Assembly (NCBI GenBank): GCA_016125185.1
Contig: WGMG01000006.1
Coordinates: 372,001 to 436,000 of the forward strand
DNA length: 64,000 nucleotides
Source of the DNA: Armatimonadota bacterium
Lineage (GTDB): Bacteria; Armatimonadota; Fimbriimonadia; Fimbriimonadales; Fimbriimonadaceae
Direction of reading: 5' to 3'
Part shown: piece after piece, positions 22,995 through 40,037 of the stretch
Layout: each line of letters starts with the position of its first letter
Position numbering within the stretch: position 1 is the stretch's first letter
Translations under genes and position numbers: made by a program
The notes under the pieces: generated by a model
Database searches by the model: none
Told to the model about the DNA's origin: nothing
Seen by the model: only the letters and a program-made list of their open reading frames with translations

Positions 22995-23948
22995 TTACTT
23001 CTTAAGGAAGTCGGCCATTTCGGCACCCGGAGCGGGCTTTTCGCCGTTGTCCACATAACCGATCTTGCCGATGCGAGAGAAGGGAAGCCAGATGAATTCG
23101 GCGCGGCCGACGATCGAGGATCGCGGCACCAAGCCCCAGCCTCGGCTATCGAACGATCCGTTTCGGTTGTCGCCCATGAAGAAGTAATAGCCTTCGGGAA
23201 TTCGCTCGGCGGGGAGGGCGCGAACCTTCGGCCACTCGGTCTCATCGTTGATCTGGTACTTCGCGGCGACGCTGTACGTGCGGCCCACCGCGTTTGCATC
23301 GAACTCGCTGTAGTTCAGCGGAATGATCTCGCCTTTGTACTTCACCAACTTCCAGTTCGACTTCGGCGCCTGGTCGCGCTCGGCTCCCTGTAGAATTCGA
23401 AATAGCGTGTTGTCGGGATTTGTCGCCTGGGTGTACTGCTTGTAAGGCTCCCACAGCGGCTTGTCGTTGATATAGACCTGACCTTGGCGAATCTCGACCT
23501 TGTCACCGGGTAAACCGATCAGGCGCTTGACGAAGTCGACATTGACGGTGCCATCGGCATCCAACTGGTCGGGGTAACACGCCTGGACCGGTGGTCGGAA
23601 AACGACGATGTCGCCGCGCTTCGGCTCGGTGTAGCGGTAAATCAGCTTGTTCAGACCGATGAAGTCGCCGACCAAATTAGTGGGGACCATCGAACCGCTG
23701 GGGATCTGAAAGGTCTGAAAGAAGTATGGTCGGATGACCATGAAAATGAAAATCGCGGCGTAGATGAGGGCGTCGAAAAGTTCGCCCACACCGCCAAGGA
23801 ACCTCCACACGAAGGCGCGAGCCTCGCGTGGAGTGTCCTTGATGAATTTGTAGGATGCCAATCGATAGACCGTCAGAATCAGCGCGAAAATGAGGATTTC
23901 ACTCAGCGGTGTTCGCGCGATGTGGTCGATCAGTTTTTGGCTATCCAT
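22995..23948 (-). CDS. lepB: Signal peptidase I, copy 1
   Basis: Membrane serine protease that cleaves signal peptides. It has an N-terminal hydrophobic segment (LSEILIFALILTVYRLASY), a second one near residue 65-85 (ALIYAAIFIFMVIRPYFF), the catalytic Ser in QIPSGSMVPT, the catalytic Lys in DFVKRLIGLPGDKVEIRQG, and box E as FFMGDNRNGSFDSRGWGLV. It is 317 residues, larger than Gram-positive SipS because of a loop around residues 160-230. It lies 10 bases behind rplS; an almost identical copy is found on the other side of rplS. Confidence 0.95.
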   Translation of the reverse strand: MDSQKLIDHIARTPLSEILIFALILTVYRLASYKFIKDTPREARAFVWRFLGGVGELFDALIYAAIFIFMVIRPYFFQTFQIPSGSMVPTNLVGDFIGLNKLIYRYTEPKRGDIVVFRPPVQACYPDQLDADGTVNVDFVKRLIGLPGDKVEIRQGQVYINDKPLWEPYKQYTQATNPDNTLFRILQGAERDQAPKSNWKLVKYKGEIIPLNYSEFDANAVGRTYSVAAKYQINDETEWPKVRALPAERIPEGYYFFMGDNRNGSFDSRGWGLVPRSSIVGRAEFIWLPFSRIGKIGYVDNGEKPAPGAEMADFLKK

Positions 23949-23958
23949 TCGTTGCTAG

Positions 23959-24312
23959 TTACTTGCGTCGCTCTTTAATTCGGGCGTCCTTACCAACCTT
24001 GTCTCGCAGGTAGTACAGCTTTGCGCGTCGGACCTTACCGCGTCGAGTGACTTCGAACTTTGCAACGTTGGGCGAGTGGACTGGGAACGTTCGTTCCACA
24101 CCAACGCCGCTCGTAACTTTGCGAAGAGTGATCGTTTTGGCAATGCCACCGTGCTTGACGGCGATGCAGGTGCCTTCGAAGAGCTGAATTCGGGACTTGT
24201 CTCCCTCACGGACTCGGACGTGAACCTTTACGGTATCACCCGGCCAAATGGTTGGCGCGTCTGGGTTGATATTCCCCTCGGCGACGCTGGCCAAGATAGC
24301 TTGTTTCGACAT
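23959..24312 (-). CDS. rplS: 50S ribosomal protein L19
   Basis: Large-subunit protein at the 30S-50S interface. It shows the family pattern: [61 protein letters not shown] and the C-terminal [19 protein letters not shown]. The product is 117 residues from ATG 24312, which has a GGAAG Shine-Dalgarno-like site; the frame extends 26 codons further without homology. Its place between two signal peptidase genes is the common trmD-rplS-lepB order, here with lepB duplicated on both flanks. Confidence 0.96.
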
Positions 24313-24442
24313 AGTTTTTGTTACTTCCGTATCCGTATTGCCTGCATTCTCCAGAACGCAAAATCGTAAACCCGTAGGTTTTGCATCCAACCCAGAGGCG
24401 CAACGGAAGTTCTGCGCTTAGGCCGAACTTCCATTCTGGCAT

Positions 24443-24474: not shown

Positions 24475-25428
24475 TTACCGCAAGAACTCGGGGACCTCGT
24501 CGCCGTCCTGCTTCGGAATATGGTTGTCCACGTAGCCAACCTTGCCGATTCGGGTCAGGGGGAGCCAGATGAATTCGGCGCGTCCAACGATGGCAGATCG
24601 AGGCACGAGACCCCATCCTCGGCTGTCAAACGACCCGTTGCGGTTGTCGCCCATGAAGAAGAAGAATCCGGGCGGAATCTTCTCGGCCGGAAGGTCGCGA
24701 ACCTTCGGCCATTCGGCGGGGTCCTCAATTCGATACTTGGCGGCGACGTCGTACGGTCCGCCGAGATGGTTCGCGTCGTATTCCGTGTAGTTCAGCGGGA
24801 TCAGCTCACCCTTGTACTTCACGAGCTTCCAATTTGCCTTGGGATAGGCGTCGACCTCGGAACCTTCCAGGAGTCGGAACTGGGAGTTCTGAGGCGGGTT
24901 CATGCTTTGGGTGTAGTGCTTGTAGGGCTCCCAAAGGTGCTTGCCATTGACGTAGACCTCGCCCTTTCGAATTTCGATGAGGTCGCCGGGTTCGCCGATG
25001 AGGCGCTTCACAAAGTCGGTGTTGACCGTTCCGTCGGGGTCGATTTGGTCGGGCGTACAGGCCTCGGCTGGCGGTCGAAAGACGACGATGTCGCCCCGCT
25101 TCGGCTCGGTATAGCGGTAGATCAGCTTGTTCAGGCCGATGAAGTCGCCCACCATACAGGTCGGGACGAGCGAGCCGGTTGGGATTTGGAACGTCTGGAA
25201 GAAGAATGGCCGGATGACCATGAAAATGAAGATGGCAGCGTAGATGATCGAATCGCAGAATTCGCTGACGCCATTCAGGGCCTTCCAAGTGGTATCGCGT
25301 CGGTGGATGGGCGCATTCTTAATGAATTTGTAGGTTGCAACCCGGTATGCCGACAACACGAGCGCCAAGATGAGAATTTGGCTGAGAGGCGTCCTTGCCA
25401 AATGGTCGACGAGTTTTTGGATGTCCAT
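24475..25428 (-). CDS. lepB: Signal peptidase I, copy 2
   Basis: A paralogue of the 22995 gene with the same length (317 residues) and the same order of features: N-terminal hydrophobic segment, YAAIFIFMVIRPFFFQTFQI, catalytic Ser in QIPTGSLVPT (Leu replaces the usual Met after Ser), catalytic Lys in DFVKRLIGEPGDLIEIRKG, box E FFMGDNRNGSFDSRGWGLV. Both copies keep all catalytic residues, so both are probably active, perhaps with different substrate preference. It lies upstream of rplS; the 162-base gap holds two palindromes. Confidence 0.94.
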   Translation of the reverse strand: MDIQKLVDHLARTPLSQILILALVLSAYRVATYKFIKNAPIHRRDTTWKALNGVSEFCDSIIYAAIFIFMVIRPFFFQTFQIPTGSLVPTCMVGDFIGLNKLIYRYTEPKRGDIVVFRPPAEACTPDQIDPDGTVNTDFVKRLIGEPGDLIEIRKGEVYVNGKHLWEPYKHYTQSMNPPQNSQFRLLEGSEVDAYPKANWKLVKYKGELIPLNYTEYDANHLGGPYDVAAKYRIEDPAEWPKVRDLPAEKIPPGFFFFMGDNRNGSFDSRGWGLVPRSAIVGRAEFIWLPLTRIGKVGYVDNHIPKQDGDEVPEFLR

Positions 25429-25510: not shown

Positions 25511-26347
25511 TTAACCTTCGAGCAAGTCGGGTCTGCGGGTCCTGGTTCGCTCTTCGGCCTGCTGTTGACGCCACTTGTCGATCGCGCCGTGATTGCCGCT
25601 CTTGAGGACGTCGGGAATGGGGATGCCGCGCCAGACTTCAGGGCGCGTGTAGTTCGGTGCGCCGAGGAGATTGTTTTGGAAGGATTCTTCGTCGAGCGAG
25701 TTCTCGTTGCCGAGCACGCCGGGGATTAGGCGAACCACGGCGTCCGCCATCACGAGAGCGGGCATTTCGCCATTGGTGAGCACATAGTCGCCGATCGAAA
25801 ATACGTGGGTCGCGAAGGTTTCCTCGATTCGATGGTCGATGCCTTCGTAGTGGCCACAGACGAAGATGATTTGGTCGAATTCTGCGAGTTCTTCGGCGTG
25901 TTTTTGGGTGAAGGGGATGCCGGATGGTTCGGTGATGACGATGGCGGTTGAGTTTGGAGTTTGGAATTTGGAATTTGGAAGGTGTTCATTCCCGTTTTGC
26001 ACGATCGACTCACCCGGTTCGTTCGTGCCTCTCTCACCGACCTCTCTCTCAAGAGAGGTATCTGGCTCGTCTGTTTTCGGCAGACCGTTCTGCAAACTGC
26101 CGACTGTCAACTGCCAACTGGAAAGGCTCTCAATCGCCAACGCCACTGGCTCGGCCTTGATGAGCATGCCCGGGTGGCCGCCGTAGGGGACATCGTCGAC
26201 TTTCTTGTGCGGGTCGTAGCAAAAATTTCGCGGATTGACGACAGAAAACTCGACCAAATCCGACGCCTCGGCCCGCGCGAGGATCGAGTGGTCGAGGGAC
26301 GACCGAATCCAGTCGGGAAAGAGCGTGACGAAGGCGATTTTTTTCAT
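25511..26347 (-). CDS. trmD: tRNA (guanine-N1)-methyltransferase with a repeat-derived insertion
   Basis: SPOUT methyltransferase that makes m1G37 in tRNAs and prevents frameshifting. Motifs present: FVTLFPDWIRSSLDHSI, VDDVPYGGHPGMLIKAEP, FVCGHYEGIDHRIEE and SIGDYVLTNGEMPALVMADAV with RLIPGVLGNENSLDEESF. At 278 residues it is longer than usual. Residues about 76-133 form an unrelated insert encoded by 25949-26122, which consists of three repeat elements in a row. The insert lies between the N-terminal motif and the knot, so folding may be tolerated. ATG 26347 begins the conserved MKKIAFVTLFP; the frame further upstream is not conserved. Confidence 0.93.
   Translation of the reverse strand: MKKIAFVTLFPDWIRSSLDHSILARAEASDLVEFSVVNPRNFCYDPHKKVDDVPYGGHPGMLIKAEPVALAIESLSSWQLTVGSLQNGLPKTDEPDTSLEREVGERGTNEPGESIVQNGNEHLPNSKFQTPNSTAIVITEPSGIPFTQKHAEELAEFDQIIFVCGHYEGIDHRIEETFATHVFSIGDYVLTNGEMPALVMADAVVRLIPGVLGNENSLDEESFQNNLLGAPNYTRPEVWRGIPIPDVLKSGNHGAIDKWRQQQAEERTRTRRPDLLEG
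25950..25977. repeat. Tandem heptamer repeat inside trmD
   Basis: Four units of 7 bases: GAGTTTG, GAGTTTG, GAATTTG, GAATTTG. Translated on the minus strand as part of the TrmD insert (FQTPNS-like residues). Confidence 0.75.
26005..26063. repeat. Palindromic dispersed repeat (family A), copy 1, inside trmD
   Basis: Begins GACTCACCCGGTTC and ends with the hairpin CCTCTCT-CTCA-AGAGAGG (26041-26058) plus GTATCT. Copies 2-4 lie in intergenic regions at 29636, 29817 and 39928. Confidence 0.7.
26078..26121. repeat. Heptamer-type dispersed repeat (family B), copy 6, inside trmD
   Basis: Contains CTGCAAACTGCCGACTGTCA followed by ACTGCCAACTGG, i.e. the CAACTG-type heptamers of family B. Confidence 0.6.
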
Positions 26348-29635: not shown

Positions 29636-29697
29636 TCGACTCATCCGGTTCACACAGCTTTGCGTGTTCACCGGCTTCTCTATCCAGAGAAGCATCT
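29636..29697. repeat. Palindromic dispersed repeat (family A), copy 2
   Basis: GACTCATCCGGTTCACACAG ... TCACCGGCTTCTCTATCCAG; hairpin GCTTCTCT-ATCC-AGAGAAGC at 29674-29693. Confidence 0.75.
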
Positions 29698-29816
29698 TGT
29701 CTTGTCGACGAAACGAGATGCTCCTCGGATTTCTTGCTAACCGGTGGTTTAACCCAGCCATTCAGGCAGGGCTACGATGAAACGGGGCAAGTTAGATTTC
29801 GCTGGCTTCCATTGGT

Positions 29817-31948: not shown

Positions 31949-32084
31949 CTAGCGCTGCCGGTAGAGCCGCTTCTCGACCCTGGCTAGGTTAGTTCGCCAC
32001 TTTGTGGCTTGGTGGTCGCAAGATTGTTTCGGTGAAGGCTTGGCTCATATTTTCGAGATGGCAGCTATGGTCTCTTGAGATGGC

Positions 32085-32187
32085 TGTTATCATCCACCCC
32101 ATCGCTTCGCGCCACCCCTCCGATCTTCGGAGGGGAGATGGTCGGTCGGCATTTAGTGGCTTGGGCGGGGCAAATCCCAGCTTTGCA
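32085..32187. repeat. Dispersed repeat family C, copy 1
   Basis: Starts GTTATCATCCACCCC, contains the perfect hairpin CCCCTCCGA-TCT-TCGGAGGGG (32115-32135), and continues through GTCGGTCGGCATTTAGTGGC and CAAATCCCAGCTTTG. Confidence 0.8.
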
Positions 32188-32361
32188 GATGTCTCTGCCA
32201 TTGCCAAGAACTTGGATCAATCCAAAGAAAGTGGATTTTCCCCTCTCGTCGTTCCGCCTGTGGCTCTGCGGAACGACACTCTTCCATGCCGAATCAGCCT
32301 TTTTGGCAGTTTCGGCATGGACCCTCCAAATCTCCTTCGGACAATTTGGAGAAAGGTTCTG

Positions 32362-32447
32362 CGTCGCTTCGCGCCACCCCTCCGATCTTCGGAGGGGAGA
32401 TGGTTGGTCGGCATTTAGTGGCTCGGGCGGGGTAAATCCCAGCTTTG
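32362..32447. repeat. Dispersed repeat family C, copy 2
   Basis: About 95 percent identical to copy 1 from the CGCTTCGCGCC part to AAATCCCAGCTTTG, in the same orientation, including the CCCCTCCGA hairpin. Confidence 0.8.
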
Positions 32448-32610: not shown

Positions 32611-34182
32611 ATGTCCGATAACCTGATTCCTGGCGCAAGTTTTCTGTCCGGCGAGGTCGCCCGAGTCTTCACCCCTGAGGATTTTGGGAGCGATGAGAAG
32701 CTGATGATCGATACGGCGGAGCAGTTCTGCCGGAGCGAGGTCATGCCTCACCTCGAAGCGATCGACGCACAGGAAGAGGGGTTGATGCCGAAGCTGATTC
32801 AGAAGGCGGGCGAGCTTGGGCTCTGCGGCATCGACAGTCCCGACCAGTACGGCGGTTTGGGTTTGGGCAAGAACCTGGCGGCGCGAATCCTCGAATTTAT
32901 GAGCTTGAACGGCTCGATGAGTGTGACGTACGGCATCACGAGCGGGATCAGTCAGGTTGGGTTGAGCCTATTTGGAAACGAAGATCAGAAGGCGAAGTAT
33001 CTGCCACCGTTGACGAGCGGCGAATGGATCGGCGCTTATGCCCTCAGCGAGCCGAATTCGGGTTCCGATGCGTTGTCGGCGACGACCAGCGCGGTGCAGA
33101 AGGGCGACAAGTGGGTGCTGAACGGCACGAAAATGTGGATCAGCAATGCCAAATGGGCGAACCTCTTCCTCGTGATGGCGAAGATCGATGGGGAGCAGTT
33201 TTCGGCGTTTTTGGTCGAGCGCGACACGCCAGGTCTGACCATTGCTCGCGAAGAATACAAGATGGGCCTGAAGGGGTCGTCGACGGCGCGTATCGTGCTG
33301 GAGGATGCCGAGATTCCGCTCGAGAACCTCCTTTATGAACCGGGGAAAGGGCACCATGTCGCCTTTAATGCGCTGAATATCGGCCGGTTCAAGCTTTCGT
33401 CGATGTCGATCGGTCCGGCGCGAAACGCAATCGAGCTGGCAGTGACGTATGCGCACGACCGGAAGCAGTTTGGGCAGAGTTTGTCGTCTTTCGGCCTGAT
33501 TCAGAAGAAGCTGGCGCAAATGGCGGGGTGGTTTTTTGTGGCCGAGTCGGCGATTTATCGAACCGGCGCGATGATCGACGAGGCGTTTGACGCCTTGGGC
33601 GGGACTATCGAAGGGAACCGAAAGGCGGCGGAGGAATATGCGATTGAGTGCTCGGCGTGTAAGGTTTTCAGCACCGAGGTGGAGTCGTACATCATCGACG
33701 ATGCGCTTCAGATTTTTGGCGGCTACGGGTTTACGGAAGAGTTTCCGATTGCGCGGCACTACCGCGACGCACGGGTCAGCAAGATTTACGAGGGAACCAA
33801 CGAGATCAATCGAATCTTCTTGGCCGACCGGTTCCAGCGGAAGCTGAAGGCGGGGCAAGTTTCGGTTGGGGAAGGTCGGTCTTTTATTGAGGATCTGGCG
33901 ATCAAGGCGATTCAGCGAGATTTGGCCGGGCAAATTGAGATTGGGGCGGCGTCGGATTTGCTTCTGCTCTCGTACGCTGAGCAGTCGGCGAAGGCTCGGG
34001 CGGAACGGCTCGGGGCTCAGGCTTTGCTGGGCACGGTTCAGGGGGCGATGAACGCAAAGGCGGCGGAGGCGTGGCAGACTCTTACGGGCGAGTCGGTTTC
34101 GTTGCCGCCGGTTGGGAAGGCGGATTTTGCGGCGGTGGCGGAGATGGTTCGGCACCATAACGGGGCGGTTCGGTTTAACTAG
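32611..34182 (+). CDS. Acyl-CoA dehydrogenase
   Basis: FAD enzyme that introduces the first double bond in fatty acyl-CoA oxidation. Recognisable parts: GLCGIDSPDQYGGLGLGKN, the FAD-binding YALSEPNSGSDALSATTSA, WVLNGTKMWISNAKWANLFLV, and the catalytic/FAD region QIFGGYGFTEEFPIARHYRDARVSKIYEGTNEI, plus a C-terminal extension of about 130 residues as in very-long-chain enzymes. It is 523 residues from ATG 32611 (the frame opens 63 bases earlier at a GTG). The electron acceptor ETF is not encoded nearby. Together with the thiolase it suggests a beta-oxidation capacity. Confidence 0.93.
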   Translation: MSDNLIPGASFLSGEVARVFTPEDFGSDEKLMIDTAEQFCRSEVMPHLEAIDAQEEGLMPKLIQKAGELGLCGIDSPDQYGGLGLGKNLAARILEFMSLNGSMSVTYGITSGISQVGLSLFGNEDQKAKYLPPLTSGEWIGAYALSEPNSGSDALSATTSAVQKGDKWVLNGTKMWISNAKWANLFLVMAKIDGEQFSAFLVERDTPGLTIAREEYKMGLKGSSTARIVLEDAEIPLENLLYEPGKGHHVAFNALNIGRFKLSSMSIGPARNAIELAVTYAHDRKQFGQSLSSFGLIQKKLAQMAGWFFVAESAIYRTGAMIDEAFDALGGTIEGNRKAAEEYAIECSACKVFSTEVESYIIDDALQIFGGYGFTEEFPIARHYRDARVSKIYEGTNEINRIFLADRFQRKLKAGQVSVGEGRSFIEDLAIKAIQRDLAGQIEIGAASDLLLLSYAEQSAKARAERLGAQALLGTVQGAMNAKAAEAWQTLTGESVSLPPVGKADFAAVAEMVRHHNGAVRFN

Positions 34183-34596
34183 GGTTTTGTTTGTTGAGTG
34201 TTATCATCCACCCCGTCGCTTCGCGCCACCCCGTCGATCTTCGGAGGGGTGGCGCGACCTAGTGTTTGCTGGACTAATTTGCGTCCAACAGGTCCCCCTC
34301 TGGACGACTAGGAGCCATGCGGTCACAGAACTGGTGGAGAAGTCTCATATTTATGCTGGGTCGGCTATCTGATCGCCATACGCATTTGAGCAGATTGAGT
34401 TTCTTTTGTAGCATCGTTTAACCTAGAAAATGCGAGTGCTCTCCACCTTAGGATTGGTGCAAGCGCTTGGCTGAGAGATTGAAGCGGTCTTATCTCAGAG
34501 CCTTATGGTGCTTCATGCATTGTCGTTGCGGTTTCAAAAGTCAATCCACATTGCAATAATCTTTCGTGGTTAGGCGCGGACTAGCACGACTCAGAC
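34183..34596. other. Non-coding gap with one repeat copy
   Basis: About 410 bases between the acyl-CoA dehydrogenase and a convergent gene. It holds a partial copy of repeat family C (34198-34264), then about 300 bases in which I see no gene, RNA or clear hairpin. AT content rises from about 34360 onwards. Confidence 0.55.
34198..34264. repeat. Dispersed repeat family C, copy 3 (partial)
   Basis: Shares GTTATCATCCACCCC and TCGCTTCGCGCCACCCC with copy 1, then ends with GATCTTCGGAGGGGTGGCGC, so that the outer arms GCGCCACCCC/GGGGTGGCGC form a longer hairpin than in copies 1 and 2. Confidence 0.65.
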
Positions 34597-39927: not shown

Positions 39928-39985
39928 CGACTCACTCGGTTCACTCGCAACTCGTTCACCGGCCTCTCTAGCCAGAGAGGCATCT
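39928..39985. repeat. Palindromic dispersed repeat (family A), copy 4
   Basis: CGACTCACTCGGTTCACTCG ... TCACCGGCCTCTCTAGCCAG; hairpin GCCTCTCT-AGCC-AGAGAGGC (39962-39981). Compared with copies 2 and 3 both arms changed (TTCTCT to CCTCTCT) with pairing kept. Confidence 0.75.
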
Positions 39986-40037
39986 CGGCTCTGACCCTTC
40001 AAGGTTTGGATTGGAAATGTTTGGGAACTAGTTGATT

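Follow-up and report, generated by a model that had tools for sequence, protein, structure and literature searches.

The TrmD protein and its insert

How did the gene of an essential tRNA methyltransferase come to carry 58 codons that have no counterpart in its relatives? The window, i.e., the whole stretch of 64,000 nucleotides that was analysed, belongs to an Armatimonadota genome designated G000 here; other G numbers denote other genomes of the collection. The features on which the argument turns are as follows:

25511..26347, minus strand: trmD, tRNA (guanine-37-N1)-methyltransferase, 278 aa (PF01746, NF000648, translation)
25949..26122, minus strand: 58-codon in-frame insert, residues 76-133, with no counterpart in TrmD of G005, G008, G015 and others
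26090..26120, minus strand: family B heptamer array, CTGCCAA type on the plus strand, peptide around QLTVGSLQ (TRF)
26005..26063, minus strand: family A palindromic element, peptide DTSLEREVGERGTNEPGES (hairpin ACCTCTC..GAGAGGT, then CGGTGAG)
25953..25980, minus strand: TTTGGAA/TTCCAAA heptamer array of about 4 units, peptide around NSKFQTPNS (TRF)
29666..29702, plus strand: family A copy outside a conserved gene
39954..39990, plus strand: family A copy outside a conserved gene

The gene product belongs to the TrmD family: it matches PF01746 above the cut-off and contains the conserved motifs, it scores 283.7 bits against NCBIfam NF000648 (cut-off 220), and it is the single TrmD-family match in a profile search of the genome. 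The match to PF01746 splits exactly at the insert (profile positions 2-59 and 57-195, E values 2.9e-47 and 5e-9), and in phmmer alignments with solved TrmD chains residues 2-77 and 133-277 align, with the insert skipped. The first-pass annotation of this DNA had placed a 58-residue segment without TrmD character at residues 76-133, within the loop separating the YGGHPGM motif from the knot; its coordinates match the breaks in both alignments, and the loop is that from the helix after YGGHPGML to the strand AIVITEP. Translation likewise bore out that the frame is kept, that the length is a multiple of three, and that codons 76-133 contain no stop. As in TrmD of other bacteria, the fold and the conserved residues are present, the best solved relatives being about 36% identical; unlike them, this protein is longer by 58 residues in the loop that precedes the knot. 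The loss of a catalytic residue (D to E in the EESF motif) was considered and rejected, because E is common in other TrmDs. Just downstream of trmD, an L19-type gene (23959-24390) is flanked by two paralogous signal-peptidase-like genes of 317 aa (22995-23948 and 24475-25428), which share DNA blocks that are 72-78% identical.

An AlphaFold2 model based on an alignment of 37 sequences had a confident TrmD core and a stretch (residues 79-126) in which almost all pLDDT values were below 50, located between a helix ending at residue 75 and a strand starting at residue 134; Foldseek retrieved TrmD crystal structures. The insert is thus predicted to be a disordered loop protruding from an intact TrmD fold. 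In comparison with G002, pN on the two flanks of the insert was 0.11 and 0.16 versus pS of 0.69 and 0.82, with synonymous sites saturated and dS in the flanks reflecting mostly the time before the insertion. Such values point to strong purifying selection on both flanks relative to G002 and G005, and on the N-terminal side relative to G009. The sequence supports an intact trmD copy in G000, whose protein would be made and active, and the effect of the insert on it would be near neutral.

RNA structure as the function of the insert was rejected: compared with shuffles, z was -1.4 for the whole insert and 0.1 for family A. No Rfam family matched the insert at its gathering threshold. The family A element (26026-26061, minus strand) scored 18 bits against the whalefall-1 RNA, whose gathering threshold is 37, and this match is probably due to chance.

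Repeat elements of the insert and their dispersal in the genome

Read in the coding direction, the family B heptamer array comes first in the insert, followed by the family A palindrome and then the TTCCAAA heptamer array. When the insert was used as a BLAST query against G000, 46 matches including itself were obtained; family A accounted for about 20 loci and the family B array for about a dozen, the near copies of the latter being about 90% identical over about 31 nt. The family A core (26033-26059 in the insert) matched the window 3 times, whereas 0 matches were expected in shuffled versions of it; clearly, chance does not explain these copies. A strict family A pattern occurred 10 times in G000, and its reversed control 0 times. 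The claim that all three elements recur elsewhere held for families A and B only. The exact TTCCAAA/TTTGGAA array was found nowhere else in the genome (a 21-mer with up to 3 mismatches hit the insert site only), and no second TTTGGAA-type array was found in the window. What recurs is the class: in 464 kb of stretches, which together with the searches form the basis of the G000 census, we counted 34 period-7 arrays of many related units, compared with 13, 10 and 11 arrays for periods 8, 10 and 11.

The other copies of families A and B in the window are intergenic or lie in shadow ORFs; across the genome, too, most copies of both families are outside conserved genes. Only 2 of the roughly 20 family A copies in G000 are within conserved genes, trmD and alaS, so gene invasion is rare in this genome. 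Family A copies in a 545-aa ORF (stretch L089) and in the PyrF ORF (stretch L079) were discounted, as they lie upstream of the conserved domains. We also rejected a fixed composite of heptamer array, palindrome and heptamer array, because arrays were near hairpins no more often than under random placement; TrmD of G000 shows that order, TrmD of G137 approximately so, and it occurs once in stretch L254. Palindromes of another family, C (CACCCCTCCGATCTTCGGAGGGGTGGCGCG type), occur in near-identical neighbouring blocks of the window (32065-32447 and 34179-34257), and a C-type element is also present inside alaS of G002.

The TrmD loop in related genomes

TrmD was found in 233 of the 237 genomes of the phylum, most of those compared being draft assemblies, and its loop was read in about 75. 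The span from the GG..GM motif to CGHYEG usually comprises about 60-68 residues, as against 114 in G000, 82 in G002, 119 in G137, and 90 in G059. Most relatives have no repeat in this loop. The genus is represented by 20 genomes, and 15 of the 19 other members lack the insert (among them G008, in which a contig end truncates TrmD past the loop), which excludes the presence of the same insert in all relatives. At the same site, the sister species G002 carries a different repeat, an ACTCAGG-type heptamer array with only weak copies elsewhere, so that the content of the loop differs even between these two genomes. The contig of G009 ends at the site. The inserts of G001 and G018 do not look like repeats; they are 30-45 residues long and have an HYY motif in common (stretches L033 and L045, respectively), no copy of the G018 insert was found in 100 kb of that genome, and G015, nested with these two in the tree, has no insert.

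Outside the genus, the loop of G137, from another genus of the same family, contains a palindrome and a CCGCAAT (CAATCCG) heptamer array, both of which recur in its own genome, and TrmD of its congeners G135 and G136 is of normal length. In G059, from another family, the loop contains a complete 95-bp palindrome with about 45 other copies in that genome. The presence of repeats in the loops of the G000/G002 lineage, G137 and G059 indicates that, as judged from these sequences, dispersed repeats reached the TrmD loop at least three times independently.

Repeats in alaS and other conserved genes

The second family A copy in a conserved gene of G000, at C1:333686, is in frame within alaS (L253:12748-15876), another essential gene. 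Splits in the AlaRS profile pointed to that loop in relatives as well. There, G009 has family A (GEVGERAVGEPGE), G002 a C-type palindrome (APPLEGRWREGFAATEGG), and G018 a D-type palindrome (CTCCCCCTCTCCACAAGTGGAGAGGGGG) with a 95% copy elsewhere; other relatives have little or no insert there. In the AlaRS tree, G000 groups with G009 and G002. Family A is read in an identical frame in TrmD and AlaRS of G000 and in AlaRS of G009, i.e., in three cases, two of which possibly derive from a common ancestor. Near profile position 372, AlaRS of G000 (L297 2845-3204) and G002 (L300 1174-1545) have a further insertion (about 85 residues), which is not repeat-like and is dissimilar between the two.

The phenomenon is most extensive in G059. 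In a sample of 33 copies of its palindrome of at least 70 bp, which did not include the TrmD copy, 27 were in long open frames and 26 of these in frame within recognisable proteins: GlnE, CarB (2 copies), TilS, MnmE, MnmG, RecO, IspE (2), SMC, PurK, DapF, LpxC (2), LpxK, FliH, FlgH, TamB, and others. With TrmD counted, family sequence flanks about 17 copies, in 14 genes, on both sides, and chance open frames are ruled out for these. The copies in FliH, FlgH, PAP2, DciA and some others fall beyond the matched domain, and the case for their lying within a protein is weaker. One preferred reading frame for this palindrome was dropped as an idea, since its peptides are not all in the same phase. 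In contig C26 of G059 (L236/L365), a RAYT-type transposase precedes the C-terminal half of carB in one open frame and the contig ends there, reflecting either an insertion into carB or a misassembly. Elsewhere, the class II ribonucleotide reductase (NrdJ) of G018 contains a D-type palindrome and heptamer arrays, and DXS of G137 contains heptamers between domains.

Origin of the insert

Taken together, these results make it very probable that dispersed non-coding repeats also enter genes, and that these tolerate the copies which are in frame, free of stops and located in a surface loop, such copies being translated into disordered spacers. Three such pieces are gathered in the single TrmD loop of G000, and family A is present in its alaS loop. 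The first-pass annotation had already read the insert as repeats that entered the gene and were tolerated as a flexible loop, and this reading agrees with its absence from most relatives, with the other repeats at the same site in G002, G137 and G059, and with the predicted disorder. Repeats would enter genes more or less randomly and most entry events would be lost; the survivors would be those in frame, without a stop and within a loop, and they would become disordered spacers, and a loop with one repeat could gather more. A bolder version, which we regard as tentative and somewhat doubtful, holds that several unrelated REP-like families of this Armatimonadota order are adapted to life in proteins: being largely stop-free and encoding disordered peptides that are charged or rich in Pro, Gly and Ser, most of their copies would persist in housekeeping genes, as in the G059 sample, repeatedly in the same TrmD and AlaRS loops. 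A role of RAYT/Y1 transposases in carrying family A was not supported, as no family A copy is beside their genes, and they remain a lead. Y1 transposase genes number 13 in G000, 22 in G002, 26 in G009 and 13 in G007, versus 0-7 in the rest of the genus; within 500 bases of the 13 genes of G000 there were no family A or D copies and one C-like match.

We infer that the repeats entered by insertion of existing copies, and the case is strong for the multi-copy palindromes. The heptamer arrays may about equally well have grown in place. Their origin by slippage, with nothing copied from elsewhere, is a serious contender that falls a little short of even chances: the exact TTCCAAA array occurs only once in G000, and in many bacterial genomes long simple repeats are most often built of heptanucleotide units, for which slippage has been proposed (PMC4679880), but about a dozen other loci contain close copies of family B, and slippage leaves the palindromes unexplained. 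It is improbable that the insert is instead a functional addition, such as a regulatory loop or a binding segment, maintained by selection. The frame kept in an essential gene would fit such a function, as would the single frame in which family A is read in TrmD and two AlaRS genes. However, the three one-frame cases are few and two of them may share ancestry, the G059 palindrome is not confined to a single reading phase, and the insert is predicted to be disordered, is missing in close relatives, and is replaced by quite a different sequence in the sister species.

An assembly artefact or a decaying gene copy is very improbable. Repeats do provoke misassembly, and the G009 contig stops at this very site, but the G000 contig is 2.0 Mb long in a genome of 13 contigs, the same class of event appears in several independent assemblies and many genes, and the kept frame and intact conserved residues of a single-copy trmD argue against decay as well. 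The least probable alternative is that the segment is bypassed or spliced out before the protein is complete. The insert RNA does form hairpins, though not clearly beyond those of shuffles; removal of an open, in-frame segment with a length divisible by three is unneeded, and the Rfam search gave no family at threshold. Insertion of dispersed repeats that are tolerated in a loop remains the preferred explanation.

Comparison with known systems

Protein-embedded repeats are known from Rickettsia and a few other bacteria, and a 2024 review considered their wider occurrence conceivable (PMC10969869). We found no prior report for Armatimonadota in the open-access literature. The present case indicates that such repeats are not peculiar to intracellular bacteria like Rickettsia and Wolbachia or to the few listed cases. 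In Armatimonadota, essential tRNA and biosynthesis enzymes are hit, the same loops are hit by different repeats in related species, and dozens of copies are so placed in one genome. These genes provide a natural series for gauging how far essential enzymes tolerate random sequence, and a testable route by which disordered protein segments are born from non-coding DNA. Caution is advisable in gene annotation and phylogenies of these genomes, which include repeat-derived residues.

Two other systems share some of these features. Intragenic GTAG/CGTC REPs of O. terrae, Thioalkalivibrio and R. conorii form hairpins or dimers in known proteins and contribute 20-30 residues (PMC3733652). REP-like hairpins in coding regions are found here as well; no GTAG/CGTC tag was seen at the foot of the hairpin in the family A copies of G000 that were read, and, unlike RAYT-linked REPs, families A and D do not flank the Y1 genes of this genome. 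The TAACTGA heptanucleotide arrays of Beggiatoaceae and Cyanobacteria are mostly intergenic and occasionally in reading frames (PMC4679880). As in that system, tandem 7-nt units are dispersed in the genome, period 7 being in excess here; unlike it, the units are of many different kinds and lie mid-enzyme in essential genes, not mainly at gene ends.

The Rickettsia palindromic elements (RPE-1 to RPE-10) and their Wolbachia equivalents are intergenic and also in frame in conserved proteins, where they are solvent-exposed (PMC3767692, PMC2229807); different elements occur near one site in Rickettsia orthologues (PMC3767692), and a guanylate kinase with such an element is translated and active (PMC2229807). 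The repeats described here are likewise dispersed multi-copy palindromes (about 20 loci for family A, about 45 copies of the G059 element), with in-frame copies in conserved proteins (trmD and alaS in G000, 26/33 in G059) and, for TrmD, a site that is solvent-exposed in the predicted model. They differ in length, the family A core being about 55 nt and the G059 element about 95 bp compared with about 100-150 bp, in belonging to another phylum and not being known to be related to those elements, and in that several families meet at one loop and heptamer arrays accompany the palindromes. The likeness to Rickettsia elements proposed in the first-pass annotation is apt as a way of working, not as membership, and these elements are the closest parallel to the Armatimonadota repeats, including the occurrence of different elements at one site.
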